Below, piece after piece: positions 10,716 to 11,105 of a stretch of DNA of 55,664 nt (within the stretch, counting starts at the first letter, position 1; each line of letters opens with the position of its first letter). A model generated the notes under the pieces. The model was not told the origin of the DNA. It worked only from the letters and a program-made list of their open reading frames with translations, and searched no databases. This DNA comes from Pseudomonadota bacterium (GTDB taxonomy: Bacteria; Pseudomonadota; Gammaproteobacteria; Competibacterales; Competibacteraceae), in assembly GCA_018240295.1 (NCBI GenBank), contig JAFEGB010000293.1, forward strand, positions 1 through 55,664, in the 5' to 3' direction. The translations under genes were made by a program, and so were the position numbers.

Positions 10716-11105
10716 ATGCAAGACCACGAACACTCCGGCACGGATGGTCAGGACGCCGCAGCCCCGGTATCCCTGCGCCGCCGCCGGCTGCTGAAGTCGG
10801 CTGCCGTCGTGGCCGTTCCCGCGGTGCTGACCCTGCACGCCGGCTATGCGCGTGCCGCGAACAGCAGCGCCGTGCGCTGCGCGCTCAACACCGTCAACGG
10901 CACCGGCATCCGGATCACCAACGAGAACACCCCCGGCCTGTACAAGGAAATGGGGGCGGACAGCCAGCTGCACGCGGTCTGGTTCCAGATCGATCCGTCC
11001 AGCGGCGGCATCACGCCGGTCCACTACAACGAGACCGGTTACAAGGTCGGCACCAACGCCTCGTTCCTGTCGAGCGGCTGCGTGAACTCCGCGCTCGGCA
11101 TCTGA
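10716..11105 (+). CDS. Small exported protein with twin-arginine leader; candidate substrate of the adjacent kinase system
   Basis: This is a 129-residue protein of unknown family. Residues 1-19 are hydrophilic. A Tat-like motif follows (SLRRRRLLKSAA, residues 19-30), then a hydrophobic segment and an Ala-rich cleavage site near AYARAA-like residues 44-48. The mature part would be about 81 residues with two cysteines (Cys55, Cys122), many Asn, Gly, Ser and Thr residues, and the tail FLSSGCVNSALGI. The ATG is preceded by GAGGA. It lies 4 bp before the PqqD-like gene, so it heads the operon. Position and small size suggest a modified precursor, but this is inference. It could instead be an unrelated secreted protein. 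Confidence 0.72.
   Translation: MQDHEHSGTDGQDAAAPVSLRRRRLLKSAAVVAVPAVLTLHAGYARAANSSAVRCALNTVNGTGIRITNENTPGLYKEMGADSQLHAVWFQIDPSSGGITPVHYNETGYKVGTNASFLSSGCVNSALGI

Follow-up and report, generated by a model that had tools for sequence, protein, structure and literature searches.

A widespread family of Tat-signal proteins as candidate substrates of the HPr-rel-A kinase system

Introduction

What is the role of a small, predicted exported protein whose gene lies directly beside those for a PqqD-like recognition protein and an HprK-related kinase? The question is raised by the window analysed here, a stretch of 55,664 nucleotides from a gammaproteobacterium of the Competibacteraceae (assembly GCA_018240295.1, contig JAFEGB010000293.1). 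Within it, an open reading frame at 10716..11105 (+) begins with ATG and codes for 129 amino acids ending in FLSSGCVNSALGI, with Cys55 and Cys122 as its only cysteines. The original prediction had described this frame as a possible new RiPP-like product with two cysteines and a Ser-rich tail. On re-reading the frame, both cysteines and the tail sequence proved exact, and the mature length of about 81 residues following Tat cleavage was close (82 residues for a cut between A47 and A48, 81 if the cut falls one residue later). The tail, however, is not meaningfully Ser-rich; what is conserved there is a C-x-x-S motif formed by C122 and S125. As described below, the protein is a member of a widespread, undescribed family that is nearly always found with the recognition protein and the kinase, and is therefore probably what the kinase tags with phosphate before export.

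Results

The kinase gene (11430..12374, +) codes for an HprK-related kinase A, which matches TIGR04352 with 302.6 bits (cut-off 200; E 2.1e-90) and possesses a P-loop, GSGKST, together with invariant His, Lys and Asp-Glu positions; the kinase profile also matches HPr kinase structures. Between the small protein and the kinase lies a gene (11110..11454, +; GTG start assumed) for a PqqD-like RRE, the HPr-rel-A system PqqD family peptide chaperone of TIGR04353. This kinase-adjacent protein aligns over most of the TIGR04353 domain with 31.3 bits, below the cut-off of 35 (E 3e-7), and all 32 members of the PqqD-like family that were scanned match the same model. A profile of the family additionally matched the lasso RRE TfuB1 (6JX3; E 0.0077) and, weakly, TbiB1; since designed helical proteins score similarly, the TfuB1 match is supportive and not decisive. 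On the other side of the small protein is the gene for a divergent PF14907 nucleotidyltransferase-like protein (9303..10472, -; 181.7 bits; start codon uncertain). Of the HPr-rel-A loci with good coverage, 125 in number, 117 contain a homologue of this protein. Together, the kinase, the PqqD-like protein and the PF14907 protein constitute an HPr-rel-A system (NCBIfam TIGR04352, TIGR04353). The original prediction, a Tat-exported product that is modified first, is partly supported, and the neighbouring system already had a name. Our picture differs from HPr-rel-A as defined in NCBIfam in the precursor: the Tat precursors tested matched none of the NCBIfam models.

Beyond the nucleotidyltransferase gene, a gene for a DegP/HtrA-type protease (7841-9250, -) is found at this position in almost every locus of the order that was examined. 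Across all loci a homologue was found nearby in only 37 of 150, so the protease was treated as neighbourhood and not as a system component. Another gene (12352-12891, -), whose small product contains an LprI (lysozyme inhibitor) domain, converges on the adjacent kinase gene. Furthermore, a terminator-like element (11138-11157, +), consisting of a strong GC hairpin with 8 GC pairs and then a T-run, overlaps the beginning of the gene for the PqqD-like protein; comparable structures were found in 3 of 125 loci and in 2 of 125 controls, and this element, which is not conserved, was rejected as a general attenuator.

The small reading frame has a homologue, 54-56% identical, at the same place in the same-genus Plasticicumulans acidivorans DSM 23606, and within its own genome it is the only match to the precursor family profile (E 2.7e-15, next best E 0.22; the profile includes the window sequence among its rows). 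On both grounds it is not a chance open reading frame. In line with the original reading, which recognised no family, no Pfam or NCBIfam model scored above its cut-off for the window protein or for ten homologues tested. Since a search of the genome contigs with the window protein alone gave no match, homologues were reached via the kinase instead. An AlphaFold model of the window protein (17 homologues) had a pLDDT of 55 and was not used.

The genome collection was found to contain at least 585 loci with a kinase relative, of which 80 were kept. Kinases over the family cut-off occur in 11 of 40 genomes of the order and in 61 of the 398 genomes of a phylum sample. Homologues without linked PqqD and kinase genes, which the original prediction had named as counter-evidence, were sought in both. 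In the order, the precursor profile (alignment A2) matches exactly those 11 genomes that have the kinase, with the two genes adjacent each time. In the phylum sample, 50 of the 51 genomes with a precursor also have the kinase (Fisher p 1.6e-51, which is only a guide because the genomes are related), the sole exception being a weak match (G284, E 9.6e-4), and the 11 genomes with the kinase only mostly carry another class of core (class B, described below). It is this co-occurrence of a conserved family with HprK_rel_A that identifies the 129-residue protein as the putative precursor, or substrate, of the system. The linkage on which the prediction of modification before Tat export depended is thus borne out; the modification itself stays a prediction.

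Where a kinase locus has no precursor, one is usually found elsewhere in the genome, mostly beside an RRE gene of its own. Nine further precursors (L240-L248), from outside the set used for the register counts given below, illustrate the range of arrangements. A precursor and PqqD-like pair without the kinase is present at L240 (G182), L242 (G127), L244 (G081) and L245 (G325), and L247 is a second such pair in G242, away from the kinase. At L241 (G139) and L246 (G271) a precursor is present with no PqqD-like match at the locus, L243 (G230) has precursor, PqqD and kinase at a contig end, and at L248 (G194) the genes for precursor and PqqD are oriented divergently to that for the kinase.

The first 47 residues of the window precursor (10716..10856, +; RRRRLLK...VPAVLTLHAGYARA, with P35 at -13) form a predicted Tat signal peptide, which a leader-only profile and counts of residue register suggest is also the leader. 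It contains a twin-arginine motif (R21-R24), a hydrophobic region and a site of the AxA type, with cleavage predicted between A47 and A48, that is, between a leader ending in PAVLTLHAGYARA and a mature part beginning ANSSAVRC. The R-R pair is invariant across the 38 precursor sequences of alignment A2, and TatC is encoded in the window's genome. The Pfam model TAT_signal scores 13.6 bits on this precursor, below its cut-off of 22.7. Given its twin arginine, h-region and AxA-type site, and a translocase in the genome, the precursor has the makings of a Tat substrate and is predicted to be exported.

A Tat-signal open reading frame lies directly 5' of the PqqD gene in most kinase loci, and of 150 loci, 131 give a leader HMM match upstream of the kinase, several of the misses being contig ends or divergent leaders. 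When applied to the order, the leader-only profile matched the 11 HPr-rel-A loci at E<1e-5 with the next match at E 0.0067; window-group sequences are rows of the profiles, which inflates their own scores, so that the point of this result lies in the absence of other matches. As just the HPr-rel-A loci of the order are matched, the leader is more specific than a Tat signal in general.

As a rule, signal peptides evolve faster than their exported cargo. In the HPr-rel-A precursor sequences compared, this pattern is reversed, as it is in RiPP precursors. When loci were compared in pairs, leader identity was found to track kinase identity but core identity was not: pairs at 70-80% kinase identity have a median identity of 79% in the leader, 46% in the core and 53% in PqqD. 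The leader is therefore about as conserved as the kinase, and the mature part is hypervariable. At the extreme, the loci L069 and L070 share 93% of leader and 76% of kinase positions and only 23% of the core. We also observed four close relatives (L065, L066, L067, L068) with a common leader and cores that are short or unrelated, some without the tail motif. Decoupling of the kind seen in the L069/L070 pair could be taken to mean that the cores have an antagonistic (bacteriocin-like) or antigenic (surface-variable) role, to which their modification is secondary. We consider this very unlikely, as each locus carries one precursor as a rule, no immunity-like gene was found among the window's annotated neighbours, and Tat export reaches the periplasm with no dedicated exporter used.

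The unique precursors were sorted by core into class A (40, window-like), class B (54), class C (9) and others (20). Class C cores contain CEIPVP followed by TCFASLQ, and those of class B share a conserved S-G-x-x-S-G-N-type segment, often with P-G-x-W. The mature core of the window precursor (aa 48-129, 82 residues; 10857..11102, +) combines a variable sequence with two cysteines, and exactly two or four cysteines are present in 60 of 69 non-class-B cores, a count that fits disulfides and from which we infer a C55-C122 disulfide. For class B cores (loci including L173, L196, L191 and L219) a confident AlphaFold model was obtained (pLDDT 84). This model, with its conserved N-terminal Ser/Cys segment, had no PDB fold match and no Pfam match, so no function can be read from it. 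A known secreted-enzyme fold, which the original prediction had set against its own proposal, therefore did not emerge from the family searches or from the class B model, and the window model, at the pLDDT given above, adds little either way.

Counting from the leader Pro revealed a fixed register. In class A, the Pro is present in 40 of 40 precursors, Thr at P+4 in 98%, Leu at P+5 in 92% and Ser at P+15 in 80%, the count being anchored on the Pro/T-L motif, which makes the Pro and Thr values partly circular and leaves the Ser value unaffected. Ser is likewise found at P+15 in 89% of class C precursors, and in 45 of 65 non-class-B precursors overall, where other offsets mostly have Ser in 1-10 of 65 (typically ~6, maximum 16). 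In the window this residue is Ser50 (codon 10863..10865, +), at +3 of the mature protein. A second candidate is Ser125 of the C-x-x-S tail motif (codon 11088..11090, +), which is invariant in the 38-row alignment A2, where S50 is not. A C-x-x-S motif occurs near the C terminus in 49 of 69 non-class-B cores, compared with 5.9 expected by shuffling; since the tail motif was the criterion for sorting class A, its invariance there is partly circular and the 49 of 69 is not. Of the nine further precursors, 8 have Ser at P+15 and all 9 have the C-x-x-S tail. Neither serine is universal, as class B precursors mostly lack both.

Ser50 is the favoured candidate phosphosite because of its register. In the system of Linear Polyphosphorylated Peptides (LPP) described in 2026, S3 of the precursor LppA is polyphosphorylated by the HprK-like kinase LppK, and the precursor consensus YxxPxVLxHQxIxFETxxS places P at -13, the cut after T-1 and S3 at P+15 (PMC13381572). 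The window spacing (P35, predicted cleavage between A47 and A48, S50) is identical and gapless, a likeness that was drawn via the published consensus and that owes something to hydrophobic residues such as all signal peptides would be expected to have. It is conceivable, though in our view rather unlikely, that the kinase instead phosphorylates S125 and that the +3 Ser reflects a processing or structural preference. The invariance of S125 in alignment A2 and the retention of the motif in all nine further precursors point this way, as do Methylococcaceae cores, which keep the tail Ser without the Cys, and the kinase PadeK, whose site is the C-terminal Ser of lasso precursors (PMC9266682). However, the tail Ser is not terminal but set back from the end by a few to ~20 residues, class B is without such a tail, and the spacing between the leader Pro and the +3 Ser is fixed and equals that in LPP.

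The resemblance to LPP (LppA/B/K/N/S/D, Bacillota; PMC13381572) extends to the gene set and the precursor. Both systems have a discrete RRE, an HprK-like kinase and an NTP transferase, both have precursors with a conserved N-terminus and a highly variable C-terminus (35-200 aa in LPP), and both share the P at -13, a signal-peptidase-type cleavage (predicted here) and a Ser at +3. In contrast to LPP, the window system is proteobacterial, its leader is a Tat signal, and its core has cysteines and a C-x-x-S tail. In addition, the Tyr at P-3 (YxxP) that is needed for RRE binding in LPP is absent, this position being occupied by V in the window precursor and by A, V, L, I or M across class A, and neither a SipW-like LppS peptidase nor an MsbA-like LppD transporter was found among the neighbours scanned (4.3-17.1 kb of the window). 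With these two LPP features missing, the aromatic of YxxP and LppS/LppD nearby, we do not file the window system as LPP. Exosortase A genes adjoin some betaproteobacterial HPr-rel-A loci, as capsule genes adjoin LPP loci.

The paeninodin and pseudomycoidin lasso systems (PadeK, ThcoK, PsmK, PsmN) are like the window system in combining an HprK-like kinase, a nucleotidyltransferase, an RRE (B1) and a conserved tail Ser. PadeK and ThcoK phosphorylate the C-terminal Ser of paeninodin-type precursors, while PsmK and the nucleotidyltransferase PsmN yield phospho- and hexosyl-Ser, PsmN adding hexose to the phosphorylated Ser (PMC9266682). The window product is not expected to be a lasso peptide: its genome has no match to a B2-type leader peptidase (PF13471), and no macrolactam cyclase domain was found among the neighbours scanned at 4.3-17.1 kb.

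The prominence of the Tat signal could suggest a different role for the PqqD-like protein, that of a proofreading chaperone acting on the signal peptide in the manner of TorD or DmsD, with the kinase regulating export or the chaperone and the precursor left unmodified. Such a role would suit a precursor whose most conserved part is its Tat signal, the frequent pairing of precursor and RRE away from the kinase, and the very name 'peptide chaperone' borne by TIGR04353. We nevertheless regard it as unlikely, because the PqqD-like family resembles lasso RREs, because the RRE, HprK-like kinase and nucleotidyltransferase systems that have been studied modify their precursor (PMC13381572, PMC9266682), and because it leaves the conserved P+15 Ser, the tail Ser and the nucleotidyltransferase unexplained.

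Discussion

These analyses suggest that the protein encoded at 10716..11105 is probably a dedicated substrate of the HPr-rel-A system, which would be phosphorylated in the cytoplasm and then exported by Tat. The computed support for this reading comprises the gene association, the decoupling of leader and core, the identity of the RRE and the kinase, and the conserved sites with their register. From these we infer a pathway in which the N-terminal region of the precursor would serve as Tat signal peptide and RiPP-type leader at once. The PqqD-like RRE would bind in the region of the leader's P-x-V-L motif (-13) and pass the precursor to the HprK-related kinase, which would phosphorylate, and perhaps polyphosphorylate, a Ser, most likely S50 (+3) or alternatively S125 in the tail. 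A further extension of this phosphate, perhaps by a sugar, may be the task of the PF14907 protein. The precursor would leave via Tat, signal peptidase would cut after A47, and a C55-C122 disulfide would hold the mature protein, whose destination would be periplasmic or on the cell surface.

Several observations count against this reading. The mature part, at 82 residues in the window and longer in most cores, is large for a RiPP core, and the aromatic of the RRE motif [YW]xxP is replaced by V at P-3 in the window. In addition, neither candidate Ser occurs throughout the family, the window's PqqD-like protein scores slightly under the TIGR04353 cut-off, and the likeness to LPP was drawn from a published consensus and not from a sequence search. 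More tentatively, at a little short of an even call, HPr-rel-A loci across Proteobacteria may as a group encode RiPP-like proteins whose Tat signal is an RRE-recognised leader and which receive a phospho- or phosphosugar modification in the cytoplasm before being exported folded by Tat. In the literature searched (few subscription papers, no preprints) we found no description of HPr-rel-A Tat precursors, and none of a maturation and export route for RiPPs that uses a Tat signal as the leader.

The HPr-rel-A kinase/PqqD pair, for which that literature describes no substrate, thus gains a conserved candidate substrate and two candidate phosphosites, and with these the function of the system becomes directly testable. 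If the proposed reading is true, it would extend the logic of phosphate-modifying RiPPs from Bacillota to many proteobacterial genomes (at least 585 loci with a kinase relative) and would join that logic to the Tat export of a folded protein. The HPr-rel-A system would then be a Gram-negative relative of LPP, the phosphopeptide system recently described in Bacillus-like bacteria.
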